Positions 1,652 through 23,375 of a stretch of DNA of 23,375 nt are shown one piece after another. The notes beneath the pieces were generated by a model that saw nothing but the letters and a program-made list of their open reading frames with translations, was not told the origin of the DNA and ran no database searches. The stretch comes from a virus. The position numbers and the translations under genes were made by a program. The stretch is from IMG/VR virus record IMGVR_UViG_3300020165_001224, positions 1 through 23,375 of that record; one strand, given 5' to 3'. Each line of letters begins with the position of its first letter. Within the stretch, counting starts at the first letter, position 1.

Positions 1652-2387
1652 TTTTAAATGCCCATTCTTTCTCATTACACCAGAAACATTTACCGCAAGG
1701 TTCTGTATAATGTTCGGTTTCTCCTGGAAATCCTACACATGAACTTGTATAGGGATAAAGGCTTTCCATTAGACCTTCATCTTTATATACTCCAGAAACA
1801 AATTTTTTATCTACATTAATATATGGTTGATACAGTCTGGTCTTCCAAGGGTTATTATCCCTAGTATCTCTTCGTCGTTCAGCTACATCGTAAAAACCAT
1901 ACTTGTGCTGATCTTCTACTGGCGGATTAGCTGTCATGCCCGTGACAATATATGATTCAGGATATTGTCTCAATATTCTGCCGGCGTTTTCTCTTAACAT
2001 TAATAATTTAACAAGACCTGATAAACCAGTGCATCTATCTACAATAGTTCCGTCCGGCATTGTTACTTTTTCTGATTCCCATTCATCCTCTGCCCTTTGT
2101 CTCCATTCGGGATCCATAATATCAAATGGATATACATCTTGCTCAGCTAGTTTACCATTAGGAAAAATTTCTCTCATAAGCTGAAGTATGTCAAGTGTAC
2201 ACTCATAATCCATAGGAGCTGTCTTATCTCTTCCCGTAAAAGGAATTACTTCAACTTCAGGAAAGAATTTAAGAATTAAATACAGTAAAGATGCTGAATC
2301 TAATCCACCCGATAGTGACAATAATACCTGTTTAGGTATGCCCTTGTCAAATAAATCAATAGTTTGATTTCCATAAGTTAGTTTCAT
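1644..2387 (-). CDS. QueC-like PP-loop ATP pyrophosphatase with C-terminal zinc motif
   Basis: 247 aa, starting immediately after the stop codon of the upstream radical SAM gene (TAG-ATG) with a strong GGGAGGG ribosome site. The N-type ATP-pyrophosphatase P-loop is SGGLDS at residues 26-31. Near the end lies C217-x13-C231-GK-C234-FW-C237, matching the four-cysteine zinc site of 7-cyano-7-deazaguanine synthase (QueC: SC...CGKCxxC), and the length is right for QueC. The order TGMTANPP, then a PYINVDKK strand, then SSC also follows QueC. However, the QueC substrate-region signature (YPDCRPEF) is not seen, and no other preQ0-pathway gene is in the window. It may therefore adenylate a different carboxylate or amide, for example in sugar amidation, as PP-loop enzymes in glycan operons do. 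PP-loop and zinc motifs are certain; the substrate is not. Confidence 0.7.
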   Translation of the reverse strand: MKLTYGNQTIDLFDKGIPKQVLLSLSGGLDSASLLYLILKFFPEVEVIPFTGRDKTAPMDYECTLDILQLMREIFPNGKLAEQDVYPFDIMDPEWRQRAEDEWESEKVTMPDGTIVDRCTGLSGLVKLLMLRENAGRILRQYPESYIVTGMTANPPVEDQHKYGFYDVAERRRDTRDNNPWKTRLYQPYINVDKKFVSGVYKDEGLMESLYPYTSSCVGFPGETEHYTEPCGKCFWCNEKEWAFKND

Positions 2388-3797
2388 CTAACCCTCCCAA
2401 AATTCTTCAAGTTCAGGAAATTCTTCAAATAAATGCATTTCCCATCTAGTACCAACATAAGCCTCATCTTGTTTTAAAAGATATTTCAAAACATCTTGTA
2501 TATTACAATCATTCTCAGGTGGCCTTTCAAGAGCTGCTTGAATATCTGGCCAGTCCTTATACAAAGGTATAAGTTTATTCTTAATTTTATACGGTAGATT
2601 ATTTACTCTTAAACCTTTAGGTCTTTCAATCATAGCCCAATTAATTTGGTGGATTTTAGGATTATCTTTACAGTAGTCAATGACTTTATGAAATCTCATC
2701 ACACTTAGAAATGATACCAAACCATTAAAATCCACAACAGTATTATCATATTCATTACAAATATCTATATTCTTTTCTACCTCATCCCAATCTGTTCTTC
2801 TTCGCATATATTCAATATCTCTACCAACACCATCAATAGATGCTACCATTGCAACTTTTTTAAACTTAGGAATATAATCAAAAATATTATGTCTTCCAGC
2901 TTTCATTTTTGTAAAATTGGTTTGATACTTAATGATAATATTTTTTGCTTCATCACATTCAATTAAGGCATCTAATAATTCATATTGCCTTTTCATTATA
3001 AGAGGTTCACCACCAATGATTTTAATACTTCTTGCATATGGAGCCAACTTTTTTATTTGCTCTAACATACCAACTGATCTATCTTTTAAGGCATTATTTA
3101 CATATTCAATTCTATTGTTATCCATTGGTCCAAATAACTCTTCATTCCAAACACCTTTTTTTACAGCCATATCCCACCGCATGGTAGAGTTAGCATGCAT
3201 ACACATATGGCAATCAAGGTTACATTCAGAGCCAAAGATTTTTAATTGTATTTCACATATTCTTTCATCAAAATAATATTCACCAGTTTCTCTAAAAAAT
3301 CTTGCAGTTCGTTCTATACCATCCCAGAATACAGGATCATTAGTATGCATTTTCATACAATTAGTTCTTCGAGATCGACCGTATCGCCTTTCATCTGATC
3401 TACATCTTTCGCATATTGTTTCAACAGCCTTGTAGTCTGAATTTGGATCTAACATTTCGCGGCGAATGCTATTCATGTATTCACTATTTTCCATCCAATC
3501 TTGAAGAGATACATCATCAATACTTACACGGGAATCTGAGCCAAAACAACAAGCTTGATAGTTACCATTTATTTCTGAATAAACTTGAGTCCAAGGAATA
3601 GAACAAAACCAAATGTTCTGATTTTTAGTTTGAGCTGTAATTGAGCTAGGATCTTCCATACTCTTTTCAATAGATTTACTTGTCTTATGAAACCATGCAG
3701 TAGTATCATATTCACCAGGTTTGGTTTTATCTCCCGGTCCACCTCGTTTCATATTATTTTCTATTACATCTAGTATATCTGAGTCAATGGGCTTCAT
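2388..3797 (-). CDS. Radical SAM enzyme with N-terminal SPASM/twitch-like cysteine region
   Basis: 469 aa. The [4Fe-4S]-SAM site is C192-NLD-C196-HM-C199, followed by the SAM-binding GGEP at 262-265. Unusually, an auxiliary-cluster-type cysteine region lies before the radical SAM core: C65 (CSIPWTQVY), C83-C84 (QACC) and C129-ER-C132, the pattern of SPASM/twitch domains that normally follow the core. Such proteins are usually annotated as twitch-domain radical SAM proteins and are common in marine phages; their substrates are unknown to me. The start is supported by an AGGTGA ribosome site, and a minus-strand late promoter lies about 30 nt upstream. It is the first gene of the minus-strand operon, so it is probably expressed late with the glycan-type genes. 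It may modify a peptide or a sugar; the sequence does not decide. Confidence 0.88.
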   Translation of the reverse strand: MKPIDSDILDVIENNMKRGGPGDKTKPGEYDTTAWFHKTSKSIEKSMEDPSSITAQTKNQNIWFCSIPWTQVYSEINGNYQACCFGSDSRVSIDDVSLQDWMENSEYMNSIRREMLDPNSDYKAVETICERCRSDERRYGRSRRTNCMKMHTNDPVFWDGIERTARFFRETGEYYFDERICEIQLKIFGSECNLDCHMCMHANSTMRWDMAVKKGVWNEELFGPMDNNRIEYVNNALKDRSVGMLEQIKKLAPYARSIKIIGGEPLIMKRQYELLDALIECDEAKNIIIKYQTNFTKMKAGRHNIFDYIPKFKKVAMVASIDGVGRDIEYMRRRTDWDEVEKNIDICNEYDNTVVDFNGLVSFLSVMRFHKVIDYCKDNPKIHQINWAMIERPKGLRVNNLPYKIKNKLIPLYKDWPDIQAALERPPENDCNIQDVLKYLLKQDEAYVGTRWEMHLFEEFPELEEFWEG

Positions 3798-3837: not shown

Positions 3838-4779
3838 ATGATTAAAAAAGCAGTAATAGAGATATGTGGTTCATGTAACTATACGTGTACCTTCTGTCCA
3901 CATTCTTTTGAAGGTGGCAGAGAAAAATCATTTAAAAGAATGATGAACTATAAGATGTTTGTTGATATGTTAGATCAATTAACAGATACAGAATGTGAAG
4001 AGATATATCTTGAAGGTTCTGGTGAGCCAACCATGAATAAGAAATTACCTGACTTTGTAAAAGCTGGTACTGATAGAGGATTTAAAATGTCCTTTATCAC
4101 TAACGGCTTCTGGTTTAAAGATGATCTTATGAAAAGAACCATTGATGCTGGTATGCACTTTGCTAGAGTTTCTGTTACGGGCTATAATCCTAGATTATAT
4201 AAAGAACAAATGAGTAAAGATGCTTTCTATGAAGTAATGGATAATACAAATGCTGCCATTGAATATGGTGGTAATATGGGTTCTTATCATTTAATCTTAG
4301 ATAACGACAACGTAAACTATGAGGCTAGTGAATACATATGTAACTGGATTAAACATGTTCCTGGGGTTAAGGCTTCTATATGGAAAATGCATAACTGGTC
4401 TGGTCAACTTGGCGTTGATTGGAGAATAGGTAAAAAGAAACGTAGCTGTGGTAGACCTTTCTCTCCTGATCTGATTGTAAGAGCAGGTGGTAATGGTGGT
4501 ATGACTGGTGCTGTTGTTCCTTGCTGTATGGTTTTAGGTCAAGATAGTAAAGGAGTATTAGGACACTTATCACACCAGACTATTGAGGAAGTATGGTATG
4601 GAGATGAATACAATAAACTAAGAAAAGCACATGAGATGCATGAATTTGATTCTATAGATTATTGTAAGAACTGCGACATGTTATATGATGCACCAGAGGC
4701 TTTGGTTTGGTCGAATTTTGATGCTGACTATAATACACTCACTGGTTCTTCTTTTACAATGGAACAATATAGAAAATGA
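3838..4779 (+). CDS. Radical SAM/SPASM domain protein
   Basis: 313 aa with the usual domain order. The radical SAM cluster motif is at the very N-terminus (C13-NYT-C17-TF-C20), then a GSGEP motif (60-64) corresponding to GGEP. The C-terminal SPASM-type region has C204, the pair C229-C230 (VVPCCMV) and C276-KN-C279, with the typical GVLGHLSHQTIEEVW segment between them. SPASM enzymes mostly modify peptides or proteins (sactipeptides, PQQ, mycofactocin) but some act on sugars or alcohols. An AGAGG ribosome site lies 10 nt upstream and a late promoter just before it. Its stop overlaps the next ATG (ATGA), so it is translationally coupled to the kinase-like gene. No precursor-peptide-like gene is directly next to it. 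Confidence 0.9.
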   Translation: MIKKAVIEICGSCNYTCTFCPHSFEGGREKSFKRMMNYKMFVDMLDQLTDTECEEIYLEGSGEPTMNKKLPDFVKAGTDRGFKMSFITNGFWFKDDLMKRTIDAGMHFARVSVTGYNPRLYKEQMSKDAFYEVMDNTNAAIEYGGNMGSYHLILDNDNVNYEASEYICNWIKHVPGVKASIWKMHNWSGQLGVDWRIGKKKRSCGRPFSPDLIVRAGGNGGMTGAVVPCCMVLGQDSKGVLGHLSHQTIEEVWYGDEYNKLRKAHEMHEFDSIDYCKNCDMLYDAPEALVWSNFDADYNTLTGSSFTMEQYRK

Positions 4780-11137: not shown

Positions 11138-14086
11138 ATGGGAAAACAATTAATTCGTGATTATGTATTTACACCTGGAGGTGCCGGAGCAGGTACAATT
11201 GAAATTCCAGGGACTTATACTTTGGACCAATTCCTAATCATTACTAACGTAACCGACAATGTGGTTATTTACAACTTTGCTGGTGCTGAACATGCCGGTA
11301 CAACTGCTGTAGTAACATCTGCAAATAGCGCAGATGATGGGCATTGGCCTACAATCGTAACCAGAGAAAATGGTTTTACTACACTTACACTAGCTAAAGC
11401 TACTACAGGTATGGCATCAACTGATCTTCTGCAAATCTTTGTAGAAGATCCACAAGGTGATACAACTATCAGACCTTATGCATTTGGTACAGATGCTATT
11501 GAACGTATGAGAGTATCCTTACCAGAGTCAATGATTGATGCTGACTTTGAGTATGGATTGCAGCCTACTAAATGGGCTGGCTATGGTACTGTTAAAGGTT
11601 ACCCATCAGTTTATCAGAATGAAGGTATTGATATTAATACTACTGCTGTAACGACAAACTACAATTCTGGTTCAGCTACAAACTCTTTAATTACAGTTAC
11701 CTTTGAATCAGCCCACGGTCTATCAGTTGGTGATGTTGTTAACGTATCAGGGTTAGATGCTGGTGTTGCAGGTTTCTCCCGTGCAGATGGTTCATTCCTT
11801 GTTGAAACAATTGTTAATACAACGAGGTTAAAATACTATGCTCGTGGTATTGTTGGTTCGTCAAATGGACAATCATTACATACAGAAGAAACATTAACAA
11901 GAGTTGGTGGTATCTATGCGGGGGCTTCTATTCCAGTTGCTAGTGCTACATCTAATGGTGCTAACCCAAGTGTAATTACTCTAAACTTTACTAACCCTCA
12001 CGGACTTATCCCAGGCACAAACATTCACGTTGAAGTTGGATCGGGTACTAATAGAGACTATGCATCAGGACCTTTCTTTATTAAATCAACTCCGTCACTC
12101 ACATCTCTTACATTTGCTGCCAGATCAGGTGCAGTGGTAAGTAGCCCAGCAACTATTACTTTATATGCTCTTTCTAATGCTACAATTTTGCATAGACCAG
12201 CAGATGGTGGTGTTATTCTACAAACAAAAACACCTACATATGCAGCTTCTGTTGTTCGTGTGAGTAAAAGGTATTTTAGATATCAGTCTGGTAAAGGCTT
12301 CCTATTCTCAACTGGTACACTCTTTGCTCCTAACTATGATATTAGGTCTATATCTGCAGCTGGTACTTCTGTAGGATCTTTGATTACAATCGGTACTGAT
12401 GAGATTGACCATGGTCTACAACCTGGTGCTAAAGTTAGACTAGAAGGTATTGAGACATCTGGATATGAAGGAACATACACAGTTGACTCTATCGTAGATG
12501 ACTATGTTTATAAAGTAGCGGCAACACAAACTCTAGGAGCAACAGATCCGGTACTCAAAAGAGTTGCTACAATGTATGTTACTGAGTGGCGAGGTGCAGC
12601 TGTTCGTGCAGGCATGTTTGATGATGTTAACGGAATTTTCTATGAGTTTGATGGTAAACAAGTATATGCTTGTAAACGTACCTCAACTCAACAGATCACT
12701 GGTACATTAGGAGTTACTGCTAACGGAAGTGCAATTACAGGATCCAATACTAGACTTACTGAACAATGTAAAGCTGGAGATAGAATTTCAATCCGTGGTA
12801 TGATTCACTTTGTGACTCAAGTTGCTTCCGATACTTCTATGTTTGTGACTCCTGACTATCGTGGTATTACAGCCTCTGGTATTAAAGGTAACCTTATTAC
12901 AGATATTAAAGTTCCACAAAGCCGTTGGAATATTGATAGAATGGATGGCACTGGTATTCATAACCAGTCAATGCATAATTTAGATGTTAATAAAATGCAG
13001 ATGGTTGGTTTCCAATACTCATGGTATGGAGCTGGATTCATCGACTTTATGATTCGTGGATCAGATGGACACTGGAATATGGTTCACAGAATGAAGAACA
13101 ACAACATTAATAACGAAGCATTTATGCGGTCTGGTAACCTTCCAGTGAGATATTCTATTGAGAATGACTCACCTATTACACACCTAACTGCAACAGTTAA
13201 TAACTCAACTACTACTATTCCAGCTGCTGAGTTAGGCGAATTTGATGATGCTGGTACACTTATGATTGATAACGAGATTATATCATATACAGGTAGATCA
13301 GTAACTACAGGAGCTGGTAACTTTACAGGTTGTACAAGATCAGCTACTCTTACTCAGTATCAGCAAGGTACTACAAATAACCTCACTGCTGGTTCAGCTG
13401 CAACACATAGTAATAAGACAGGTATCATTGAGATTTCAAACACTTGTTCTCCGACACTATCCCACTGGGGATCTGCCCTAGTCATTGATGGAGACTTTGA
13501 CTTCGACCGTGGTTATATCTTCAACTACTCTAACTCACACAACTCTGGATCAGATCAGATTGTTACAACTCCTATCACATCTTTTGTGCTTAGACTTGCA
13601 CCTTCTGTATCTAACTCATCAGTTGGTAGACTTGGAGCTAAGGATCTTCTTAACAGATCACAGCTACTCCTTAAAGAATGTGCTGTTGTTTGTGGGCGTG
13701 GTTCATCATCATCAGGTGAGGTTCATATTCAAGGGATTATTAATCCTAAGAACTTCCAAGATGCTACATGGAAATCACTCTCAGGTACTACAGAAGGTGG
13801 CCAGCCTAGCTTTGCTCAAGTTGCAAACAAAGGTGATATTACATGGAGCACTGGCTCATATGCGCAACCAGGAGAACGTATCTTCTCATTCATTGCTGCG
13901 ACATCAAGAGCAGATTCACTTGTTACTTCTGCTGATATTGATCAGCTTAAAGAATTATCAGGTGCTCCTCTCGGAGGTGATTATAAATTCCCAGATGGCC
14001 CAGACATCTTGGCTGTGAATGCATTCTGTTTATCTGGTGATGTTAAAGCGTCTATTCAGCTTCGTTGGTCTGAAGCGCAGGCTTAA
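11138..14086 (+). CDS. Large baseplate/tail structural protein
   Basis: 982 aa, 3 nt after the preceding stop, with AGGATAG as ribosome site. The N-terminus GKQLIRDYVFTPGGAGAGTI followed by EIPGTYTLDQFLIITNVTDN is, to my knowledge, a recurrent start of large structural proteins in T4-like marine phages. The middle has at least three repeats around an HGL-x-x-G motif (H193, H288, H425), each followed by V.V.G and a strand-rich segment. The second half includes FMRSGNLPVRYSIEND, followed by several Ser/Thr-rich beta segments. Cys are few. Its place between fibre genes suggests a baseplate or fibre-attachment role. I cannot link it safely to a named T4 gp. Confidence 0.7.
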   Translation: MGKQLIRDYVFTPGGAGAGTIEIPGTYTLDQFLIITNVTDNVVIYNFAGAEHAGTTAVVTSANSADDGHWPTIVTRENGFTTLTLAKATTGMASTDLLQIFVEDPQGDTTIRPYAFGTDAIERMRVSLPESMIDADFEYGLQPTKWAGYGTVKGYPSVYQNEGIDINTTAVTTNYNSGSATNSLITVTFESAHGLSVGDVVNVSGLDAGVAGFSRADGSFLVETIVNTTRLKYYARGIVGSSNGQSLHTEETLTRVGGIYAGASIPVASATSNGANPSVITLNFTNPHGLIPGTNIHVEVGSGTNRDYASGPFFIKSTPSLTSLTFAARSGAVVSSPATITLYALSNATILHRPADGGVILQTKTPTYAASVVRVSKRYFRYQSGKGFLFSTGTLFAPNYDIRSISAAGTSVGSLITIGTDEIDHGLQPGAKVRLEGIETSGYEGTYTVDSIVDDYVYKVAATQTLGATDPVLKRVATMYVTEWRGAAVRAGMFDDVNGIFYEFDGKQVYACKRTSTQQITGTLGVTANGSAITGSNTRLTEQCKAGDRISIRGMIHFVTQVASDTSMFVTPDYRGITASGIKGNLITDIKVPQSRWNIDRMDGTGIHNQSMHNLDVNKMQMVGFQYSWYGAGFIDFMIRGSDGHWNMVHRMKNNNINNEAFMRSGNLPVRYSIENDSPITHLTATVNNSTTTIPAAELGEFDDAGTLMIDNEIISYTGRSVTTGAGNFTGCTRSATLTQYQQGTTNNLTAGSAATHSNKTGIIEISNTCSPTLSHWGSALVIDGDFDFDRGYIFNYSNSHNSGSDQIVTTPITSFVLRLAPSVSNSSVGRLGAKDLLNRSQLLLKECAVVCGRGSSSSGEVHIQGIINPKNFQDATWKSLSGTTEGGQPSFAQVANKGDITWSTGSYAQPGERIFSFIAATSRADSLVTSADIDQLKELSGAPLGGDYKFPDGPDILAVNAFCLSGDVKASIQLRWSEAQA

Positions 14087-14102
14087 TAGGAAATAAAAAC
14101 TA

Positions 14103-15893
14103 ATGGTACAAAAGCTAAGTGATCATCTAAATATTAGCCTAGGGTTGGCAGCACAAACCGACTCTGCAGATGTTCTTGCTATTATTAGAGAAACAAACAT
14201 TGCTATGGACTCCGGTACCATGGGTGATTTTGTTGCGACTATTGCTGGTAAAGGATCTGATGCAGGTATTACAGTTCTCAACTCTGGTACTAATAATGCA
14301 GATGTTCAACTTAGATTAGACTCAGCTGTTGCTGCTACTCTTACAGGGTCTCAAACACTTACTAATAAAACAATTAACCTTACAAACAATAGTTTGACTG
14401 GTACTATTGGTCAGTGGAATGCAGCTCTGAGTGGCGGTAACTCTTTCACAACATTAATTGGTACTGAGACACTTACTAACAAGACACTGACTTCTCCTGT
14501 TCTTAATACAGTTGATATCAACTCTGGTGCAATTAATGATATTAGTACATTCTCACTTAGAGATGCTACTGTAGCAAGCTATGAACTTTTACTTGCAGCA
14601 AACAGTTCAGTTAACGCAAGTGCTGATAGAACATTAACCTTTGATGTAAAAAATGCTAATAGAACTTTAAGTCTATTAGGTAACTTAACCCTTGGTGGTT
14701 CTCTTACTACATCTGGTGCATACGGAACTACACTCACAGCAACTGGTACTACATCAGTCACGCTACCAACATCTGGTACTCTTATATCAAAAGATGGTAG
14801 CAATAATGTAACTGGTATTAATAATATTACAGCCACAGGCACTGTTGATGGCAGAGACTTATCTGTAGATGGTGATAAACTTGATCTAATTGAAGCTCAA
14901 GCAGATGTTACTGATGCTGGTAATGTTGGGACTGCTTTAACAGCATTTTCTACAGGTACTGATGCAACAGGTTCAGACCTTATACCGGTATATGATGCCT
15001 CAGCAGGTACATGGGAAAAGCAAACTATTACTAATGCATCCTTGCAAGGACCTGCGGGTGGAACTGGTGCTAAAGGGCAAAAAGGTCAAGCCGGTTCTAT
15101 TGGTGTTGACGGTGATGCAGGTGCTAAAGGGCAAAAAGGTGAAGTTGGTCAAAAAGGTGCGGCTGGTTCTAATGGAGCTGCCGGTGCTAAAGGACAAAAA
15201 GGTGAAGTCGGAGCCAAGGGTGCAGCTGGTTCTAATGGAGCTGCCGGTGCAAAAGGTCAAAAGGGTCAAAAAGGTGAGATTGGTGAATCTGGTTCTGGTG
15301 CATCTGGTGTCAAAGGCCAAAAAGGTGAAGTCGGTGGAACTGGTGGAACTGGTGCTAAAGGTCAAAAAGGCGACGGTGGAGCTAAAGGACAAAAAGGTGT
15401 ACCTGCATCATCTATCACAAATACAACTGCTCCAGGTGGAGCTGTAGACGGTGATCTTTGGTGGGACGAGGAAACTGGTGCTCTATATATTTACTATAAT
15501 GATGGCACTTCAAGTCAGTGGGTACAATTTAATAATGCAGTTGTTCCAGACGGATCTATAACAGGAGCCAAACTTGTTGATGACTCAGTCACTGCAGCTA
15601 AACTGGCTGATAACTCTGTTGATTCTCAACACTATGTTGATGGTTCTATTGATAGAGTACACTTAGCAGCTGACATCGTTGATGGTACTAAGATTGCTAA
15701 TGATGTAATTAACTCCGAACACTATGCAGCCGGATCTATAGATGCAGAACATTTAGCATCTAATTCCGTAACACAAGTCAAACTTGCAGATGATGCTGTT
15801 GGCGCAAATGAATTAAAATCTGTCGTATCCTTTGTAGTGTACAACTCAGCAGGTACAGCACTCAAAACCATATACGGCGCAGGAGGCACATAA
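14103..15893 (+). CDS. Tail fibre with collagen-like stalk
   Basis: 596 aa. The N-terminal third is an alpha/beta adaptor plus shaft with two LTNKT repeats (LTGSQTLTNKTINL and IGTETLTNKTLTSP). Residues 316-434 form a collagen-like G-X-Y tract of 39 triplets with one two-residue interruption. After it comes a small globular segment (APGGAVDGDLWWDEETGALY, with YYNDGTSSQWVQFN) and a shaft of short repeats built on 'DxSV..akLAD.SVDSqHYvdGSID..HLA'. Such repeats form triple beta-helical rods in phage fibres. The end YNSAGTALKTIYGAGG is short and compact. A ribosome site AGGAAA precedes the ATG. Probably a trimeric host-contact fibre. All lysines of the collagen part are in Y positions. Confidence 0.85.
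   Translation: MVQKLSDHLNISLGLAAQTDSADVLAIIRETNIAMDSGTMGDFVATIAGKGSDAGITVLNSGTNNADVQLRLDSAVAATLTGSQTLTNKTINLTNNSLTGTIGQWNAALSGGNSFTTLIGTETLTNKTLTSPVLNTVDINSGAINDISTFSLRDATVASYELLLAANSSVNASADRTLTFDVKNANRTLSLLGNLTLGGSLTTSGAYGTTLTATGTTSVTLPTSGTLISKDGSNNVTGINNITATGTVDGRDLSVDGDKLDLIEAQADVTDAGNVGTALTAFSTGTDATGSDLIPVYDASAGTWEKQTITNASLQGPAGGTGAKGQKGQAGSIGVDGDAGAKGQKGEVGQKGAAGSNGAAGAKGQKGEVGAKGAAGSNGAAGAKGQKGQKGEIGESGSGASGVKGQKGEVGGTGGTGAKGQKGDGGAKGQKGVPASSITNTTAPGGAVDGDLWWDEETGALYIYYNDGTSSQWVQFNNAVVPDGSITGAKLVDDSVTAAKLADNSVDSQHYVDGSIDRVHLAADIVDGTKIANDVINSEHYAAGSIDAEHLASNSVTQVKLADDAVGANELKSVVSFVVYNSAGTALKTIYGAGGT
15048..15404 (+). repeat. Collagen-like G-X-Y coding repeat (39 triplets)
   Basis: Encodes residues 316-434 of the fibre. 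The dominant unit is GAKGQKGEV, with GSNGAA spacers. A 21-aa block is repeated with a 63-nt period (starting near 15165 and 15228). One interruption (GS) lies after GEIGES. The only prolines are in the first triplet (GPA) and the last (GVP). All 17 lysines occupy the Y position. Confidence 0.95.
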
Positions 15894-15896
15894 TAA

Positions 15897-16964
15897 ATGG
15901 CTGCTATTAATTTTCCAAGTTCACCAGCAAACGGTGCCACTCATACAGCGAATAATGTAACATGGGTATTTGAATCCGCTAAAGGGGTATGGAGAGCTGC
16001 TACATTTGCCGATGCACCTACTGGAGCCAAAGGCCAAAAAGGTGAGAAAGGCCAGAAGGGTCAAACGGGTGACACTGGAGCCAAAGGTCAAAAAGGACAG
16101 ACTGGTAGCACGGGTTCAACCGGTTCAACTGGGGCTAAGGGACAAAAAGGCGAAGTAGGAAACACAGGTTCAACTGGGGCTAAGGGACAAAAAGGACAGA
16201 CTGGTAACACGGGTTCAACCGGTGCGAAAGGTAATACAGGAAACACAGGTTCAACTGGCCAAAAAGGTCAAAAGGGTGAAGTTGGCCAAAAAGGTGCAAC
16301 AGGCTCAACTGGTTCTACTGGTAGCACTGGCTCTAAAGGTCAAAAAGGTGATACTGGGAATGTTGGAGGTAGTAACATTGATATTACCAATATCGGCATT
16401 TTCTCTAATGCTTCATCTAACTGGACTGGTGATCCAGGCACAAAAGGTAAAATTCAATACCACTCAAATAGATGGTATATTGTTGCAGACTCATCTTCAA
16501 ACAGAATTGTTCAGTTTAGAAGAAACAACTCCGATGTATCGTATGTTGATAACTCAGGTATCTATCAAGGTACTGCAGCATCTGCTAACTGGTCTGACCT
16601 TGCGGAGAAATATTTAGCTGATACGATATATGAACCAGGTGATCTTTTAGGTATTGGCGGTAATGAAGAAGTTACAATCTGGCAAAAAGGTATGCCGGTT
16701 GCAGGTGTTATATCTACATTGCCTGGGCTTAGAATGAACGTATCTGAAGAAAATAAAGAGGATCCGCTATGGCCCTTTATTGCTCTGAAAGGACGTATTC
16801 CTTGTAAGATAAATGGTACTGCTCAAAAAGGCGACTATATAGTAGCAGATGATAATGGTAAATGTAAAGCAGTTACTGTCGAACGTGCTTCTGAAATACA
16901 CTTCTTACATTATATTGGTGTAGCTTTAGAGGACGGTGAAGGAATAGTTGAGGTTAAAGTATAA
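15897..16964 (+). CDS. Second collagen-like tail fibre with 'DLAEKYLAD' C-terminal domain
   Basis: 355 aa. A strong AGGAGG ribosome site lies inside the end of the previous gene. Residues 1-40 (INFPSSPANGATHTANNVTW, then VFESAKGVWRAA) form a short adaptor found at the start of many phage fibre proteins. Residues 43-156 are 38 perfect G-X-Y triplets. The C-terminal 200 residues contain ANWSDLAEKYLADTIYEPGD and LLGIGGNEEVTI, a domain common at the end of marine phage fibres and reminiscent of intramolecular-chaperone-type fibre ends; no autoproteolysis motif is certain. It probably trimerises through the collagen helix. Its stop is fused to the next start (TAATG), coupling it to the first Cys/His-tailed protein, so the two may form parts of one fibre. 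Confidence 0.85.
   Translation: MAAINFPSSPANGATHTANNVTWVFESAKGVWRAATFADAPTGAKGQKGEKGQKGQTGDTGAKGQKGQTGSTGSTGSTGAKGQKGEVGNTGSTGAKGQKGQTGNTGSTGAKGNTGNTGSTGQKGQKGEVGQKGATGSTGSTGSTGSKGQKGDTGNVGGSNIDITNIGIFSNASSNWTGDPGTKGKIQYHSNRWYIVADSSSNRIVQFRRNNSDVSYVDNSGIYQGTAASANWSDLAEKYLADTIYEPGDLLGIGGNEEVTIWQKGMPVAGVISTLPGLRMNVSEENKEDPLWPFIALKGRIPCKINGTAQKGDYIVADDNGKCKAVTVERASEIHFLHYIGVALEDGEGIVEVKV
16023..16364 (+). repeat. Collagen-like G-X-Y coding repeat (38 uninterrupted triplets, no proline)
   Basis: Encodes residues 43-156. Triplets are mainly GQK, GAK, GST, GNT and GQT. By my count Y positions hold 16 Lys, 19 Thr and 3 Val; no Lys is in X and there is no Pro at all. The nucleotide sequence has locally exact copies (for example around 16126-16152 and 16167-16193). 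Confidence 0.95.
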
Positions 16965-17374
16965 TGCCAACCTATGCGCAACTTAACTCAAGTTTACAAT
17001 CACAGTGTGGTGGGCAGTTAAGAACATTTGATAAAACAGCAACAACTACGGTTACTGCTTATATTAGAGTTTATGGTACAGATAATACATTCGGTGCTGT
17101 AATGGCTTCACAAAACGGACCTACATCATCTAGTGGATTTAACCATAGATTTGAATATGTAAACGCCAATAATACATTATATGCAAATTATCTTGATAGC
17201 GGAATTGCTACTGGTTCAAGAATATATAGTCAAGATGTTATTGACTCAATCAATAATACATTAAATAGAACAGTTACCTTAATCGAAGGTAGAATAACAA
17301 ATAGATCAATCAGTGCTTTATTATGTCACAATAGTTGCCACAGTAGTTGCCACACATCAAGAGGTAGACGCTAA
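16964..17374 (+). CDS. Small Cys/His-tailed virion-type protein, copy 1 (candidate modification substrate)
   Basis: 136 aa, start overlapping the fibre stop (TAATG). The body is hydrophilic and strand-rich (AYIRVYGTDNTFGAVMASQN, and FEYVNANNTLYANY), with one Cys at residue 15 (QCGGQL). A predicted helix (SQDVIDSINNTLNRTVTLIE) leads to the C-terminus, where residues 121-136 read CHNSCHSSCHTSRGRR: three CHxS units with 4-residue spacing and a basic end. No signal peptide. About 60% of positions are identical to the following gene by my count. It follows a collagen-type fibre and precedes radical SAM genes in the same coupled operon. I infer a fibre-tip or tail protein whose C-terminus binds metal or is enzymatically modified. 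No named family is recognised. Confidence 0.7.
   Translation: MPTYAQLNSSLQSQCGGQLRTFDKTATTTVTAYIRVYGTDNTFGAVMASQNGPTSSSGFNHRFEYVNANNTLYANYLDSGIATGSRIYSQDVIDSINNTLNRTVTLIEGRITNRSISALLCHNSCHSSCHTSRGRR
17324..17371 (+). other. (CHxS)3-RGRR C-terminal motif, copy 1
   Basis: Codes for residues 121-136 of the first small protein. The Cys residues are at 121, 125 and 129, each followed by His, which would put all Cys on one face of a helix. The last four residues are RGRR before the stop. Confidence 0.9.
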
Positions 17375-17790
17375 TGGGTAATATGTCAAGAGATAGTGTT
17401 GACAGCTATATTCAAACATATTGTGGTTCTCAGCTAAGAGGTTTTGATAAAACTATCAGCTATTCAGTGAATGCTTATATTAGAGTTTATGGTACGGACA
17501 GTATATCTGGTGCTGTAATGGCTTCACAAAACGGACCTACAGCTAATGCAACTGTAAACCAAAGATATGAATATGTGAATGCTAATAATACATTATTTGA
17601 TAACTATATTGATGGCGGCGTTTCAGCCGGATCAAGAGTATATGCTCAAGATATTGTAGATACAATTGAAGATGGAGTGAGACGTGCAGTTGATTTAATT
17701 GAAGGTAGAATAAGTAACAGATCGTGGAGTACATTACTTTGTCATAATAGTTGCCATAGTAGCTGCCACACATCAAGGGGAAGACGCTAA
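17374..17790 (+). CDS. Small Cys/His-tailed virion-type protein, copy 2 (tandem paralogue)
   Basis: 138 aa, coupled to copy 1 by TAATG and to the first radical SAM gene by another TAATG. The alignment with copy 1 needs no gaps apart from two extra N-terminal residues. Strongly conserved parts are CG.QLR.FDKT, AYIRVYGTD, GAVMASQNGPT, EYVNANNTL, LIEGRI.NRS and the whole tail from LLC onward (residues 121-138). The strand regions and the helix (AQDIVDTIEDGVRRAVDLIE) vary, as expected if two subunits pair or face different partners. The invariant tail inside a diverged body points to selection on the CHxS unit. Function is unknown; see copy 1. Confidence 0.7.
   Translation: MGNMSRDSVDSYIQTYCGSQLRGFDKTISYSVNAYIRVYGTDSISGAVMASQNGPTANATVNQRYEYVNANNTLFDNYIDGGVSAGSRVYAQDIVDTIEDGVRRAVDLIEGRISNRSWSTLLCHNSCHSSCHTSRGRR
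17740..17787 (+). other. (CHxS)3-RGRR C-terminal motif, copy 2
   Basis: Codes for residues 123-138 of the second paralogue. The amino acids are identical to copy 1 although several codons differ (for example CAT for CAC, AGC for AGT, AGGGGA for AGAGGT). This indicates conservation at the protein level rather than a very recent DNA copy. Confidence 0.9.
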
Positions 17791-18956
17791 TGTCTATGCA
17801 AAAATCATATTGTAAGCAGATGAGATATTCTGGGCCAGAAAGCCTAGCACCGTCTGATGCAACAAAGTTTGATGTTCTCATTCAAATGGAGGTTCTTGCA
17901 GGGTGTGATCACGGCTGCTTGGGTTGCTTCGTTGATAAGAATATTGATCCAGCAATGAATCAAATGATCATTGACAGAGCTAAAGAACTTACTGATGGAG
18001 TAAAGCGTACTGGATTAAACCTACGTGAATTTGTTATCGGACCAACAGATTTCTTTACAGCAGAAAATACAGAATCCGTATTAAACAACTCAGTAGTTCA
18101 AGAGATTATGAGAGAACATACTGGAGCACGTATTGCTGCACCAGCTAAGTTTGATAAAGTTTCTATGGATAAACTTGAGCACATTTTCTCTATTCTTGAT
18201 GATGAAGATAAGTATCGTAAAGAAATGATTATTGAATTTATTATGCCAATTGGTAGAGTAGGTGAAATGTTAGATGATGACGATTACTTTGATGAAGTAA
18301 TGCGTAAAGTTGAATTCTTTAAGAACGATACACCTAAACAAATGGATTGGTCTTGGACTCTTCAAGCATCAAATGTTGTTGGTAAAAAGATTGATAAAGA
18401 AACATATAATAGAATTATTGATAAATCAGTAAATGAATATAATACTATTGTTGAGATGAATCCAGCTTTCTCTCGAGCGCGTAGTCAATTAATTAAAAGA
18501 AGTAATTTGTTTGCTTGGAATAATTTCCTTGGAAAAGTAATTGATGAAGATAATGCTAATAAGACAGTAATGTCTATGGCTAATCTTTACTGTAATTCAA
18601 TTAACTTTATTGGATTAACTATTGTACCTGGAGAAAATGGACCAACAACACATCTAAACGTAATGCTGCATGAGCAAGCATTTTTCTTAGATAATAAAAA
18701 CCTAGATGTGACTGGGCTTACCTTTGAAGAAATCCTTCAGAGAAAAAATGAGCTAGTTACTAAAGGGATAAATAAATCAAGTAAAGTAAAAGACTGTTCT
18801 GATTGTCAATATGCTGTTGCTTGTGCTAGCCGTCTTATCTTTGAGGCGCAAGACTCACTTAATATTGATGGGTGTGTGCTTAATAAAGATATTCTTGAGC
18901 ACTACAATCCATATGACTTTACTTGGAACGATGATGCTGAAAGGGCAATGGGATGA
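17790..18956 (+). CDS. Radical SAM enzyme A (CxxxCxGCF / IGPTD subfamily) with C-terminal auxiliary-cluster cysteines
   Basis: 388 aa, coupled to the Cys/His-tailed genes by TAATG. The radical SAM site is C39-DHG-C43-LG-C46-F; where most families have GGEP it has VIGPTDFF (82-89). The C-terminal region has C336-x2-C339-x5-C345-x16-C362, fit for an auxiliary Fe-S cluster of SPASM/twitch type. After it comes a 26-residue acidic tail. Enzymes of this architecture generate a 5'-deoxyadenosyl radical and often crosslink or epimerise residues in peptides. No RRE (precursor-binding) domain is recognisable in the N-terminal 30 residues. It is the first of four related enzymes in the operon and immediately follows the candidate substrates. 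Substrate assignment is inference. Confidence 0.85.
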   Translation: MSMQKSYCKQMRYSGPESLAPSDATKFDVLIQMEVLAGCDHGCLGCFVDKNIDPAMNQMIIDRAKELTDGVKRTGLNLREFVIGPTDFFTAENTESVLNNSVVQEIMREHTGARIAAPAKFDKVSMDKLEHIFSILDDEDKYRKEMIIEFIMPIGRVGEMLDDDDYFDEVMRKVEFFKNDTPKQMDWSWTLQASNVVGKKIDKETYNRIIDKSVNEYNTIVEMNPAFSRARSQLIKRSNLFAWNNFLGKVIDEDNANKTVMSMANLYCNSINFIGLTIVPGENGPTTHLNVMLHEQAFFLDNKNLDVTGLTFEEILQRKNELVTKGINKSSKVKDCSDCQYAVACASRLIFEAQDSLNIDGCVLNKDILEHYNPYDFTWNDDAERAMG

Positions 18957-20053
18957 TTGGTCAAAATTTATACTATCTAAACAACACAAAATATATTTCA
19001 AATGTTACCAATTTGGAAACCGTGATTGGTGAACTTAATTCTTACTATCATACTAAGACGCCAAGAAATATTGTGATTGTTCAACCATCAAGTGGTGCAA
19101 GATTAACAGAAGGACAGTATACTGAACTTGCTAGATTGCAACGTACAGATGCTCCTGATCTTATTACCTTTATGGAGTGGGATGCTGTTAACACTATTTC
19201 ATATATTCAGAATAGTGATAAGAGAATACTTTTATTTGCTACTGAAGAGGATATGCTTACTGTTTATGTAAAATATACAGCAGGACTATTAAAAGCATGT
19301 GGTTGGTATGATTCAGCAGATGATACTGACGGATGGGCAGCAGACTTTATTGAAGCTACACTTGCAATGGATGTAATGTTTACATATATGCAAGCTTCTG
19401 AAACCCTTGGTGATATCTCAGATTTCTGTGATAATATTCTTAATCGTAGTGCTGATTCAGATGGTGGTGCCTATGTGGTAACATATCAGAATGGTAAAAA
19501 CTTTAGCTACGATTTACTATTCTGGCTTAATGATAACCATAGAAATGCTTCAGTACAAGCTTTAATCAAAGAAAAGTTCACTGTACACCAGTCTGTAATG
19601 GCTCAGGATGTTATGGAACACTTTACATCAAGACGACACTATATGGCATATATTCTTTCTGTTATTGATTGGATGAATGCAAATACTGCTCGTAATTCTG
19701 CGTATGCTACTAATAAAAAAGCCTGGGTTACAGACTGTTATATTACAAAAGCTAATGCAGGTAACTATACAGCTGCTTTCTATAAGTTAGAAGAATTGTG
19801 GAATCTAGTTAAAGATGATACAGCCTTTATTGCAGCACACCAAGATAAAGCAGATAGTGATGCAGACGGCTGGGAATATATGGATCTATACACAGAATTT
19901 AAAAATGTGTTTCCTATTGTTCGTAAGGTTCTACAAAACGACTTTGATATGGATAACTTAACAGCTGATTTAAAGTTGATAAATACAGATGTACAATTCT
20001 TCTCAAAGAGACAGAATCGTATCCCCTATCTTATCCACAAATATCCATTGTAA
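18953..20053 (+). CDS. Unrecognised 366-aa protein in the radical SAM operon
   Basis: The start overlaps the preceding stop (ATGA). I do not recognise a family. Residues 1-110 look alpha/beta: strand NIVIVQPSSGARLT, helix GQYTELARLQ, then strand KRILLFAT. The rest is largely helical, with many Asp and aromatic residues and a stretch GKNFSYDLLFWLNDNHRN near residue 180. There are only three Cys and no signal peptide, membrane span or catalytic motif I can name. Because it sits between radical SAM enzymes with coupled translation, it may be a partner that binds the substrate or an enzyme, or a virion-assembly protein. No further function is supportable. Confidence 0.75.
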   Translation: MIGQNLYYLNNTKYISNVTNLETVIGELNSYYHTKTPRNIVIVQPSSGARLTEGQYTELARLQRTDAPDLITFMEWDAVNTISYIQNSDKRILLFATEEDMLTVYVKYTAGLLKACGWYDSADDTDGWAADFIEATLAMDVMFTYMQASETLGDISDFCDNILNRSADSDGGAYVVTYQNGKNFSYDLLFWLNDNHRNASVQALIKEKFTVHQSVMAQDVMEHFTSRRHYMAYILSVIDWMNANTARNSAYATNKKAWVTDCYITKANAGNYTAAFYKLEELWNLVKDDTAFIAAHQDKADSDADGWEYMDLYTEFKNVFPIVRKVLQNDFDMDNLTADLKLINTDVQFFSKRQNRIPYLIHKYPL

Positions 20054-20066
20054 GGAAAATTTTATT

Positions 20067-20819
20067 ATGCAAGAGCTTGATATTAATCAATGTTATGAGT
20101 TACCCTTAGCTCCTCAACACCTTGTTCAAATATATAAAGACAAGGAGTCTATAGAGGACTATATCCTTTGGGTTGACTATGAAAAAACAAAAGAAAAGTT
20201 ATCACCTCAGCATATTATTATCTACCTTGCTAATACTAACTTTAAAACAACTTTCTCTGCAATTGACGATGATCTAATTAAAGCATATATTCAATCTGAC
20301 TTTATGGTAGACTGTCCCTTGTTAGCTCGTATTGTTGTTCTTCTTATTAAAGTAAAATACCAACACGAAATATTTGGTCAGGAAGCAGAGCTTCTACCTA
20401 TCTTTGATATGGAAAGATTAATTAAGTTTAATGAACAAAACGAAGAACTTATGGATAAATTGGTTGCCACTGTTGCATCTAGTGTACCATTTGCTCTCAG
20501 TAAATTCTATAATGGTTTACCACCAGAGATTAAAGAAAAAGAAGTAAATCTAACTGACTTTTTGGACCTTGTAGAAGTTACGGATGCTCCACCTCCATGT
20601 GGACCTAACATTGCTAGACTGCTTACTGTTGGATTTGATGCTCTATTACTTATTTTAAGTAAGGAAGGCTTATCTGTAGAATACAACAAACAGCTATATA
20701 ATGATTCTCCAAAGTATTTTGGAAAGGATCTTTATTTTATTATGTGTGAAACTAAATTGACAGATCAGATTATATCTTTCTTCCCAGAGGACTTTATTTT
20801 AAATGCGAGTGCAACTTAA
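20067..20819 (+). CDS. Unrecognised 250-aa protein in the radical SAM operon
   Basis: I choose the ATG at 20067 (MQELDINQCYELPLAP) because an AAGGA ribosome site lies 10 nt upstream and this removes a 65-nt overlap that an upstream in-frame ATG at 19989 would need. The protein is mostly helical and acidic. It has a hydrophobic helix LLARIVVLLIKVKY near residue 90, probably buried rather than membrane-spanning, and a helix LLTVGFDALLLILSKEGL near 190. A Pro-rich turn DAPPPCGPN lies at about 173-181. No catalytic motif is recognised. It is the only gene of this operon with a 13-nt gap instead of an overlap. It overlaps the next radical SAM gene by 17 nt, and a role as partner or chaperone of the enzymes is possible. 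Confidence 0.75.
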   Translation: MQELDINQCYELPLAPQHLVQIYKDKESIEDYILWVDYEKTKEKLSPQHIIIYLANTNFKTTFSAIDDDLIKAYIQSDFMVDCPLLARIVVLLIKVKYQHEIFGQEAELLPIFDMERLIKFNEQNEELMDKLVATVASSVPFALSKFYNGLPPEIKEKEVNLTDFLDLVEVTDAPPPCGPNIARLLTVGFDALLLILSKEGLSVEYNKQLYNDSPKYFGKDLYFIMCETKLTDQIISFFPEDFILNASAT

Positions 20820-21825
20820 TGGTTCATATGCTGGGTATTATTCATATGATCCAGAACACAGCCCTATTAATCAGGACTTTCTGAGAACAGAAATAAATCT
20901 GGATATACTCCATGGCTGTGATCAGATGTGTCCTGGTTGTTTTATTCCTCGTAAAAACTTAACTAATCCAGATCAACTAAAAAATCTATATGAGCTTTTA
21001 GTTAAAGGCGATTACCATCCAGACGAAATTGTAATCGGACCAACTGACATCTTTGATGCTCAGAACTTTAATGAAATTATGAATCATCCTTATATGAAGA
21101 AACTCTATGAGATTTCTGCAATTGGATATACATCCACACTTTTACAAGATTATGATTCTATACACTATAAACTTAAAAAGATATGGGATCTGTATTATCA
21201 TATTAAACGTATTCCGGATATAGATTTTAAGATAGTTTTAGACGTTAATAAGTACCTTGACAATGAGTTGGACGATTGGTACAGAAACCTCGAGCTGTTT
21301 AAGAGTGGTTCTGTACAGTTTAGAGTAAATTATACTAAGGATGTATTCAACCGAATTGGTTATAATGAATTATGTGAAAGAGTATACAAAGACTTTAATG
21401 CTCCAGTTGTAATAACTCCATCGTTTCTTACAGATAGAAATGCAAGAGGTAAGGTTGAACAATATCTAAGTAACTTCCGCAACGATATGCTTGCTCAAAA
21501 AATAGATCCTAAATGGCAAAATCTTTATACTTTCTTTGATGCTAAGTTTAATGGTTTTGGTTGCCAAAATTATAGTTTCTATAATGGTAAGTTGTATGTT
21601 AACCCTTTTCTATATGATGCTATTATACAAAGAACACCATTCTTTGAAACAACTATGGATGAGAATAAACTATATCAGAATATTGAATATGCTCAACAAG
21701 TAGACGACTGCAATGGTTGTGAATTTATGATGAGTTGTGCTGAAAGAAATGTGCATATGTATATGGAGTCACGGAACATAGATCAGTGTGTCGCGATGAA
21801 AGAATATATGCATGCCTCTCATTAA
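20803..21825 (+). CDS. Radical SAM enzyme B (CxxxCPGCF / IGPTD subfamily)
   Basis: 340 aa, start overlapping the previous gene by 17 nt with AGAGG as ribosome site. The cluster motif is C39-DQM-C43-PG-C46-F, at the same residue numbers as enzyme A. EIVIGPTDIFDAQNF follows at about 75-89. The auxiliary cysteines are C303-x2-C306-x5-C312-x16-C329, with spacing identical to A and C. Before them, LYVNPFLYDAI matches YLSPFMYENMA of enzyme C, so B and C are closer to each other than to A. It ends soon after the last Cys, without the acidic or basic tail of A and C. It is presumably a cytosolic peptide- or protein-modifying enzyme acting during late infection; the substrate is inferred from gene order only. 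Confidence 0.85.
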   Translation: MRVQLNGSYAGYYSYDPEHSPINQDFLRTEINLDILHGCDQMCPGCFIPRKNLTNPDQLKNLYELLVKGDYHPDEIVIGPTDIFDAQNFNEIMNHPYMKKLYEISAIGYTSTLLQDYDSIHYKLKKIWDLYYHIKRIPDIDFKIVLDVNKYLDNELDDWYRNLELFKSGSVQFRVNYTKDVFNRIGYNELCERVYKDFNAPVVITPSFLTDRNARGKVEQYLSNFRNDMLAQKIDPKWQNLYTFFDAKFNGFGCQNYSFYNGKLYVNPFLYDAIIQRTPFFETTMDENKLYQNIEYAQQVDDCNGCEFMMSCAERNVHMYMESRNIDQCVAMKEYMHASH

Positions 21826-22969
21826 GAACAATTTATATTACGAACTTACCACAGAGACACAGACAAAGCCAGTATCTGCAGTAAAGATACAGCTTGATGT
21901 ATTAGATGGTTGCCATCATAAGTGCCCTGGTTGTTTTGTACATCGCAGAGGTAATGCTAGTGATGAACATCAGTTAGATAAAGCAAAAGATTTTATAAGA
22001 AGCATAACAGATCAGGGAATCTTGGTTGATGAGATGCTTATTGGACCAACTGACTTTCTTGCATCAGAAAACTTCTATGAAGTGATGCCACATCTTCTGG
22101 ATATCATTAACGAAAACTCACCTATTCTTGCATTTGTATCTACACTTATTGATGGAGATATAGAAAGATTTGTTGAGTTTATTAATGAACATGTTAATCT
22201 TGATACAGAAATAGAAATTGGTATTGCAACAAATCCTTACAAGTTTTTTGAAGAAAAGTATTTACAACACATTAGTGATATGTTATACTATATTGATCAA
22301 AATGTAAAGCATGAGGTTACATATACATTTGTCGTAAATATAAGAGATTATGGTTTAGATTATACTACACTACATGATAAAGCAGTAGAGAAGTTTCAAA
22401 CAATTCTTGACTTTGTACCTTCGGTATCAAGATCACATAAGCCTAATATTATTCTTGCAACACTAGATAAGTTTAATGAATACTTTAATGTATTAAGTCT
22501 TGATACTAAACTAAACAATATCATGGTAGATCATTCACACGCTGGTATGAATTATCAGGTTCTAAACTATAAGAAAGGCGATTGGTATCTAAGCCCATTT
22601 ATGTATGAAAATATGGCTATCTATGATCCTATGTTTAAGATAGAATCCTTTGACGATGTATATACAAATGTAGATACACAGATAGAAAGAGCAAAGGGAA
22701 CAGAATGTGAAAACTGTCCATTATTTACATCTTGCTATAACAGAAAGATTATATTATTAAGAGATTACTTAGGTGTGGATAGATGTATTGCTCCGAAAGA
22801 GAATATGCTAAGGAATATACATAACTATAACGGACCAGCTCAGACTATGTATGAATGGGATGGCTATTCTGTTGAAAACGATAAGAATGGTTATAGAAAA
22901 AGATTTTTAGTTACCAAAGATGATGATCCAGAATTAGAAAGATTGAGGAAAATTTCATATGTTAGTTAA
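21812..22969 (+). CDS. Radical SAM enzyme C (CxxxCPGCF / IGPTD subfamily) with charged C-terminal extension
   Basis: 385 aa, overlapping enzyme B by 14 nt. The cluster motif is C34-HHK-C38-PG-C41-F, then EMLIGPTDFLASENF, and auxiliary cysteines C299-x2-C302-x5-C308-x16-C325. A C-terminal extension of 60 residues (beginning IAPKENML, with YNGPAQTMYEWDGYSV and a charged end) is absent from B. It could contact a partner such as the small protein encoded next, whose start overlaps this gene by 11 nt. The enzyme core between the two cysteine regions is alpha/beta barrel-like in its strand/helix rhythm. Having several similar enzymes suggests successive or residue-specific modifications, but the sequence does not show which residue each would act on. 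Confidence 0.85.
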   Translation: MPLIKNNLYYELTTETQTKPVSAVKIQLDVLDGCHHKCPGCFVHRRGNASDEHQLDKAKDFIRSITDQGILVDEMLIGPTDFLASENFYEVMPHLLDIINENSPILAFVSTLIDGDIERFVEFINEHVNLDTEIEIGIATNPYKFFEEKYLQHISDMLYYIDQNVKHEVTYTFVVNIRDYGLDYTTLHDKAVEKFQTILDFVPSVSRSHKPNIILATLDKFNEYFNVLSLDTKLNNIMVDHSHAGMNYQVLNYKKGDWYLSPFMYENMAIYDPMFKIESFDDVYTNVDTQIERAKGTECENCPLFTSCYNRKIILLRDYLGVDRCIAPKENMLRNIHNYNGPAQTMYEWDGYSVENDKNGYRKRFLVTKDDDPELERLRKISYVS

Positions 22970-23153
22970 ACCTAAAAGAGTAATGATTGATCCACCTAAC
23001 GGATGGAGATATGGCTTTCCTAAGATGCTGCCTTTAATTCCAAAAGAAGGAAAGAACTTTAGATTAAAAGACTGGCTAATTCAAGAAGGTTATCCGCCAC
23101 ATGAAATAACGGATAATCCTAACTTTGCTTGTCGAATGTGGGAAACTGATTAA
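22959..23153 (+). CDS. Small conserved-looking 64-aa protein between radical SAM genes
   Basis: Start overlaps enzyme C by 11 nt and its stop overlaps the next start (TAATG), so it is translated within the operon. The sequence has a Pro/aromatic core (IDPPNGWRYGFPKMLPLIP), then a helix-turn segment NFRLKDWLIQEGYPPHEI, and ends FACRMWETD with a single Cys. The Pro-Gly-Trp composition looks like a compact, non-enzymatic fold. Similar short 'DPP.GW.YGFPK' proteins seem familiar to me from T4-like marine phages but I cannot give a function. It may bind a radical SAM enzyme, given its position, or be an unrelated small phage protein. Confidence 0.65.
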   Translation: MLVKPKRVMIDPPNGWRYGFPKMLPLIPKEGKNFRLKDWLIQEGYPPHEITDNPNFACRMWETD

Positions 23154-23375
23154 TGTTAAATGACGAATGGAAAAATATTGTAGCCAAGGGCCATAAGCTT
23201 GAGGAGTTTACTGCTGTATCATCCATGAGTCAATATAAAATACAAGTCAATCTTGAAATACTTGAGGGCTGTTCTTATATGTGCCCTGGTTGTTTTGTTA
23301 AACGTAAAGGCAATTGGAATCCAAACTCTATTGCAACATTTCACTCTTTGGCACTTGAGTTAAAAGATAGAGATG
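23153..23375 (+). CDS. Radical SAM enzyme D, N-terminal part (cut by window end)
   Basis: The frame is open from the ATG at 23153 (MLNDEWKNIVAKGHKLEEF) to the window end, 74 complete codons. After a beta-strand KIQVNLEILEG come C40-SYM-C44-PG-C47-F and VKRKGNWNP, closely matching enzymes B and C (the Cys motif followed by basic residues and an Asn). The stop of the 64-aa gene overlaps this start (TAATG). The IGPTD and C-terminal cysteine regions lie outside the window, so completeness cannot be judged. It is the fourth member of the same subfamily in one operon. Confidence 0.85.
   Translation, partial: MLNDEWKNIVAKGHKLEEFTAVSSMSQYKIQVNLEILEGCSYMCPGCFVKRKGNWNPNSIATFHSLALELKDRD

Follow-up and report, generated by a model that had tools for sequence, protein, structure and literature searches.

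A conserved C-terminal Cys/His tag and its multi-enzyme radical SAM module in phages and bacterial chromosomes

The IMG/VR virus record IMGVR_UViG_3300020165_001224, whose entire 23,375 bases constitute the window analysed here, carries a gene island in which two small paralogous proteins with the same Cys/His-rich C-terminus are encoded between a tail fibre gene and a series of radical S-adenosylmethionine (SAM) enzymes. Here, we find that this C-terminus is one instance of a 16-residue tag with the consensus CHxSCHxSCHxSRGRR, that is, (C-H-x-S)3-R-G-R-R. Its carriers are T4-like marine phages, the cultured jumbo phages FLC6, Atu_ph07, DT01 and Phosso, and the chromosomes of Bdellovibrio-type bacteria, and it occurs with a module of four to nine radical SAM enzymes from five families (RX and R1 to R4). 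Judged from sequence comparison, the tag is very probably the substrate of this module. We also consider it likely that the window contains one example of a maturation island with a wide distribution, whose enzymes would modify the tag on a fibre-associated structural protein before assembly. The system works like the radical SAM maturation of ribosomally synthesized and post-translationally modified peptides (RiPPs), and we assign it to no named class.

In 185 distinct proteins of 125–365 residues, the tag forms the very C-terminus. When the last 18 residues are removed, these proteins fall into nine families without detectable mutual similarity, the part outside the tag measuring 110–350 residues, and an hhalign comparison of the two main types joins them over the last 56 residues only. 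Scans excluding His gave no real example for the first or the second unit and one for the third, CHTSCHSNCNCNRGRR; a natural His-to-Phe variant with the Ser kept, CFTS in locus L270, is the sole such internal His replacement seen among phages. Because nine unrelated N-terminal families share it and His-replaced variants are nearly absent, the tag is, as far as its sequences tell, a portable and intensely conserved element. Both synonymous codons of Cys and of His are used about equally in the 185 canonical tags. Therefore, selection acts on the protein, and a DNA or RNA element beneath the tag is ruled out; a chance motif is ruled out by the recurrence as an exact C-terminus in 185 proteins together with the linkage to radical SAM genes. 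The residue two positions after each His (555 sites in the 185 tags) is Ser in 494 cases, Asn in 41, Ala in 15, Gln in 3 and Arg in 2. Thr and Gly never occupy this position (0/555), while they are found 100 and 82 times, respectively, one position earlier.

The linkage between tag and enzymes was surveyed from both sides, with mechanical gene calls and in loci that are phylogenetically non-independent. Starting from the tag, we scanned IMG/VR with a DNA pattern encoding CHxxCHxxCHxxRGR, which matched at least 120 stretches, 80 of which were examined; in 79 of these, the match is the exact C-terminus (...CHxxCHxxCHxxRGRR-stop) of an open frame. In the tag-selected set, 40 distinct loci extend 1.3 kb to either side of the tagged gene; 38 of them have a same-strand radical SAM-like gene no more than 1.3 kb away. 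In the two exceptions (L076 and L104) the first enzyme follows after a gap of about 1.75 kb, which in L076 is filled by the conserved module proteins U1 and U2. For comparison, the same holds for 4 of 25 background genes lying more than 5 kb off in the same loci, and a radical SAM-like gene of any kind was found in 1 of 13 loci where the pattern is not C-terminal. Starting from the enzymes, loci were fetched by R1 alone, each R1 scan comprising the best 80 matches. All 76 loci with room in the second R1-selected set encode a tagged protein (75 canonical, one ending in CHSSCHGSCHGSRARR), and the only non-canonical R1 neighbour in the first set ends in CHYSCFTSSCHFSRGRR, in two near-identical loci. 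The first-pass annotation of this DNA had asked whether CHxS-tailed proteins and radical SAM genes lie together in related phages, and both surveys answer that they do, even at a great distance from this virus group. Its inference that the enzymes modify the CHxS units of virion proteins encoded right after a fibre, probably at the tail tip, thereby gains support.

The same association is seen in bacteria. Among 241 genomes from the phylum of a Halobacteriovoraceae metagenome-assembled genome, 13 contain R1, and the exact tag is confined to 6 of these (hypergeometric 6.7e-9, with the caveat that it was the tag that had first led to the six genomes). Of the seven R1 genomes left, five carry variant tags in the same cluster, namely CHGNFPPPCHGSRGRR (three genomes), CHSNHCSHSNHGSRGRR and CNSNFICHSNCYTPPPKSRSRR; in the remaining two, no tag-like C-terminus was found within the approximately 4 kb read around R1. 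Variant tags such as CHGNFPPPCHGSRGRR occur on chromosomal contigs of the Bdellovibrio/Bacteriovorax type.

In the window, the island is encoded on the plus strand. It is preceded by two fibre genes, the first of which is a tail fibre gene with collagen-type repeats (14103..15893, +; PHROG tail fibre families), while the second is the collagen-type tail fibre gene directly 5' of the tagged genes (15897..16964, +; Pfam Collagen 2.1e-18, PHROG tail fibre 4e-34), as had been recognized at first pass. Gene maps show relatives of this second fibre gene adjoining the module in other phages. Tagged protein 1, a putative substrate of 136 residues (16964..17374, +), and its paralogue tagged protein 2 with 138 residues (17374..17790, +) both end in CHNSCHSSCHTSRGRR (17324..17371 and 17740..17787, both +), corresponding to residues 121–136 of the former; the shared Cys/His tail was thus read correctly. 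Most likely, they belong to the tip or the collar of the fibre encoded just upstream. Next come RX-A, with the motif CDHGCLGCF and a C-terminal Cys cluster (17790..18956, +); U1, a module protein of 366 residues that is conserved at the same place elsewhere and matches no family (18953..20053, +); and U2, a conserved protein of 250 residues, a homologue of which is encoded in 46 of 54 module loci (about 20067..20819, +). The series continues with RX-B, with CDQMCPGCF (20803..21825, +), RX-C, with CHHKCPGCF and a below-cut-off match to Pfam Radical_SAM at 7e-5 (21812..22969, +), a 64-residue protein (22959..23153, +) and the start of RX-D, with CSYMCPGCF, which is cut by the window end (23153..23375, +). 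The two unrecognized proteins and the 64-residue protein of the first-pass annotation are therefore all present. It had also described a gene series without gaps. From the tagged genes onward, the junctions are TAATG, TAATG, ATGA, a gap of 13 nt, overlaps of 17, 14 and 11 nt, and TAATG, so that the description holds except for the gap between U1 and U2, the largest of the island, provided that U2 starts at 20067. Similarly, enzymes A to D are mutually related by sequence search, as proposed, but their number of four was set by the window end, and the motif CxxxCPGCF attributed to them is present in B, C and D, with CLGCF in A.

The 64-residue protein is proline-rich and lies between RX-C and RX-D also in a second contig, IMGVR_UViG_3300020595_000175 (L018); it seems to be optional, since RX-C and RX-D overlap directly in many relatives. 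Upstream of the island, the window contains two more SPASM-type radical SAM genes, at 2388-3797 (-) and 3838-4779 (+), for which the search used found no relation to the RX family of the island. A QueC-like gene is located at 1644-2387 (-), also upstream; since it is on the opposite strand and outside the module, queuosine enzymes were rejected as module members.

L018 differs from window positions 13858-23375 by 1 mismatch in 9,518 bases and represents the same virus population. It completes RX-D (385 residues) and adds RX-E, which is followed on the opposite strand by a block encoding a 235-residue protein, R2 (CHLNCAFCH), a 133-residue protein, R4 (CNFRCDFCY), R3 (CNFKCSFCS), R1 (CNLNCAHCF) and a cupin-like protein. 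After the cupin-like gene, a 2-oxoglutarate (2OG)-Fe(II) oxygenase is encoded on the plus strand (PF13759, 8e-13). Since L018 adds RX-E and R1 to R4 to enzymes A to D, the island totals nine radical SAM genes. Major capsid genes of the T4 type (Gp23) are present on related contigs of 160 and 151 kb (2e-148 and 3e-150, respectively); among cultured phages, Phage C48C1 and the Methylophilales phages Melnitz have the closest capsid genes, followed by cyanophages.

Based on 54 representative loci from unrelated phages, a recurring order could be summarized as fibre-cupin-R1-tag-U2-U1-R2-(2OG)-R3-R4-P133, with losses and insertions, where R1 lies immediately 5' of the tagged gene in most loci other than the pelagiphage type. 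Pelagiphage-type loci have the same parts, with R1 to R4 located at the far end; their C...C.GCF family (RX) adjoins the tags and is expanded. In each of the eight loci scanned, the gene just upstream of the module scored as a virion structural or tail fibre gene; for FLC6 and DT01, within those eight, the scored gene lies near the module and is of the virion structural class. Thus, the placement after a fibre gene that was noted in the window is the usual one and recurs in unrelated phages. The first-pass annotation underestimated the system, which includes five radical SAM families, cupin proteins and 2OG oxygenases and is found on bacterial chromosomes too.

Some further features of the module loci may be mentioned here. 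P133 (131–147 residues, often starting with MKxWKxRQ; L018:13169-13570 and relatives) adjoins R4 and R2 in 12 loci; a library scan matched it to no known family, and it is possible that it acts as a substrate-recognition partner. The T4-like 151-kb contig IMGVR_UViG_3300025138_000014 (L414 and L042) has two modules, in that a pelagiphage-type copy is accompanied by a copy of the single-tag type. Upstream of R1 in L077, there are seven paralogous genes encoding 285–309 residues, pantothenate synthetase-like by eye, and such a tandem expansion is unusual for a phage contig.

The module is also present in phages under cultivation. In Burkholderia phage FLC6, gp70 is a cupin, gp71 is R1 and gp72 is the tagged protein. 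In Agrobacterium phage Atu_ph07, gp172 is cupin-like, gp171 is R1 and gp170 is the tagged protein, with FCHSSCHASCHNSRSRR as its C-terminal peptide. In Pseudomonas phage pPa_SNUABM_DT01, genes 00067, 00066 and 00065 correspond to cupin, R1 and tag, after which more radical SAM genes and also 2OG oxygenases are encoded, and Sinorhizobium phage Phosso has the module as well. In all four, the tagged protein is labelled 'hypothetical'. According to the Atu_ph07 report, the virion proteins detected by mass spectrometry come mostly from CDS 31-76, 170-215 and 284-329 (PMC6102473). This CDS numbering is consistent with the RefSeq tags, where gp215 is the capsid protein. One of the clusters rich in detected proteins thus starts exactly at the tagged gp170, which was therefore presumably detected in the virion. 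We consider it likely that the mature tagged protein belongs to a host-contact structure of the virion. Among bacteria, the module occurs in Halobacteriovoraceae, Bacteriovorax and related genomes on contigs of up to 593 kb, and in one set its flanks, identified by eye, read as ordinary chromosomal genes. Several of the Bdellovibrio/Bacteriovorax-type chromosomal contigs (L281-L284 and L307-L311) have a second R1 paralogue and adjoining prepilin-like genes.

Existing resources say little about these proteins. Neither Pfam nor NCBIfam matches the two tagged proteins of the window, and PHROG 35144, a family without function, matches tagged protein 1 at 6e-6 via its C-terminal half; none of the libraries used names the tagged proteins or gives R1 to R4 a function. 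For the window tagged protein, AlphaFold predicts a beta region between an N-terminal and a second helix (predicted local distance difference test score, pLDDT, 78), with the tag helical at low confidence, and U2 reaches a pLDDT of 89. Foldseek gave no match at E <= 0.001 for the tagged protein in the PDB and the viral library, nor for U2 in the PDB, and a PDB sequence-profile search gave no match. No relatives were obtained by a DNA search of cultured phages or by tblastn with the window tagged protein, because only the short tag is shared; the cultured relatives were reached via another tagged protein and R1. Neither the tag nor the module was found described in the open-licence literature, where absence is no proof.

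Then, what chemistry could the enzymes perform? R1 of FLC6 (gp71) passes the SPASM model TIGR04085 with 28.8 against a cut-off of 27, whereas RX-D scores 14.2 only. The best named models for R1 are all peptide maturases, namely DynA (1.6e-13), PapB (2e-13) and YhhB (2.6e-12). NrdG-type ribonucleotide reductase activators were rejected, their matches being weak (0.0006 to 0.04) and far under the cut-off. In the triceptides, HaaB forms C2(His)-Cb(Ala), YhhB forms C2(His)-Cb(Arg) and MscB forms C4(Phe)-Cb(Ser) links, and dynobactin contains a Cb-Ntau(His) bond; all of them join residues i and i+2, and both His and Phe are on record as the aromatic partner (PMC11002830). The tag shows the motif expected of triceptides, an aromatic residue followed two positions later by a residue with a linkable beta-carbon. 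Since triceptide-type reactions use an unbranched beta-carbon two positions after the aromatic residue and tolerate Phe, H-x-S linking is taken as our working model. By analogy, each H-x-S unit of the tag might carry a His(Phe)-Cb link, a proposal that we hold tentatively.

Comparison with known systems delimits this one. The triceptide (HaaB, YhhB, MscB and XncB) and dynobactin (DynA) systems share SPASM radical SAM enzymes and an aromatic-x-(S/N/A/R) motif with it, but they process small peptides with one or two enzymes, whereas a phage protein of 125–365 residues is accompanied by four to nine radical SAM enzymes here. The His-Xaa-Ser system (HxsA/HxsB/HxsC/HxsD) likewise has His-Xaa-Ser repeats next to several radical SAM enzymes, and it differs from the repeat described here, with its period of 4, invariant Cys and RGRR end. 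Membership in it was rejected: HxsA matches no tagged protein, and the enzymes remain under the HxsB and HxsC cut-offs (DT01 R2, 21.0 bits to HxsC with a cut-off of 267.9 and 19.5 bits to HxsB with a cut-off of 370; DT01 R3, 25.5 bits to HxsC). The radical SAM cassettes in the host recognition cluster of pelagimyophages, reported without substrate, tag or function, probably represent the same kind of gene in the same genome region (PMC7029224). The cupin, radical SAM and 2OG genes of the Chiangmaivirus jumbo phages FLC6 and SURPRISE13, classed as accessory or unknown proteins, constitute the same module, in which the tagged FLC6 gp72 was annotated as hypothetical (PMC8066314; PMC11898562).

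Based on the above, the following pathway is proposed. A structural protein would bring the portable C-terminal tag, which the radical SAM set, together with U1, U2, the cupin and the 2OG-Fe(II) oxygenases, would modify in the infected cell prior to assembly. In each H-x-S unit, the His ring would be joined to the beta-carbon two residues on, while the Cys residues might form further thioether or disulfide links or be oxidized by the cupin and 2OG proteins, and the outcome would be a rigid, protease-resistant tip touching the host surface. Several points weigh against this proposal. The scores of R1 to the named maturases are far under the equivalog cut-offs, for example, 46.4 bits against 445 for YhhB and 33.7 against 370 for FxsB among the models of three-residue cyclophane-forming enzymes (3-CyFE). 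A RiPP recognition element (RRE) was not identified by family scans in U1 and U2 of the window, in their FLC6 and DT01 counterparts or in P133. The exclusion of Thr and Gly could equally reflect structural packing. Most bacterial islands are without an obvious fibre gene, and the virion presence of the tagged protein is inferred from synteny and from the cluster boundary reported for Atu_ph07.

Alternatively, the Cys and His residues of the tag could bind a metal, an iron-sulfur or an organometallic cofactor along the fibre axis, which the radical SAM enzymes would assemble in the manner of HydE/HydG or NifB. In the T4 long tail fibre tip, iron is coordinated by His, and the pattern of the tag, consisting of Cys and His only, as well as its helical prediction at low confidence, would suit such a metal tip. 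The metal-bearing, His-x-His-containing tip of T4 gp37 resembles the tag as the His-rich end of a fibre component; however, His-x-His is absent from the tag, and C-H-x-S with a period of 4 is found in all 185 canonical tags. To our knowledge, radical SAM enzymes play no part in the gp37 tip. Metal binding leaves unexplained both the exclusion of Thr and Gly and the replacement of His by Phe with Ser kept, for which reason His(Phe)-Cb links are preferred to metal ligation; moreover, the best named relatives of R1 are not cofactor assembly enzymes. We regard a metal tip as unlikely.

Could the tag instead be cut off after modification, as in a classical RiPP, and target the host cell or else competing phages or bacteria? 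The precursor-like build with a variable front and a fixed end, the RiPP-type enzymes and the chromosomal copies in predatory bacteria would agree with this. However, no peptidase or exporter was recognized among the module genes mapped or scanned, the remainder of 110–350 residues belongs to nine different families encoded 3' of tail fibres, and Atu_ph07 gp170 bounds a cluster of virion protein genes, so that such a role appears quite improbable. The enzymes might also act on the fibre itself, such as its collagen repeats, or on a host sugar, with the tagged protein as a mere assembly partner. The module does lie next to fibre genes, and sugar-type and QueC-like genes are encoded in the upstream part of the window. 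Yet several module-adjoining fibres have no collagen-family match, while every R1 locus with room encodes a tagged protein, and a C-terminal tag so strictly conserved is typical of an enzyme substrate; a target other than the tag therefore seems very improbable.

Returning to modification of the tag on a host-contact protein, viruses would devote an entire pathway of radical chemistry, with four to nine radical SAM enzymes as well as oxygenases, to cross-linking this tag, and Bdellovibrio-type predators would apply the same pathway to a protein encoded on their chromosome; we judge the case for this full picture to be evenly balanced. We know of no kind of system that cross-links a portable tag on a host-contact protein in this way. 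If the pathway is the same in phages and predatory bacteria, two kinds of bacterial killers would therefore share one chemically armoured contact tip. Radical SAM cross-linking has so far come from small peptides, and here it is apparently tied to a viral structural protein, with a strikingly invariant tag that phages infecting marine, freshwater and soil bacteria have in common with bacterial predators. If true, the proposal would account for the 'radical SAM cassettes' of abundant marine phages, make the role of the jumbo-phage enzymes directly testable in cultured phages and supply a portable tag with its enzyme set for peptide engineering, and covalent radical chemistry would join the means by which phages build their host-contact parts.

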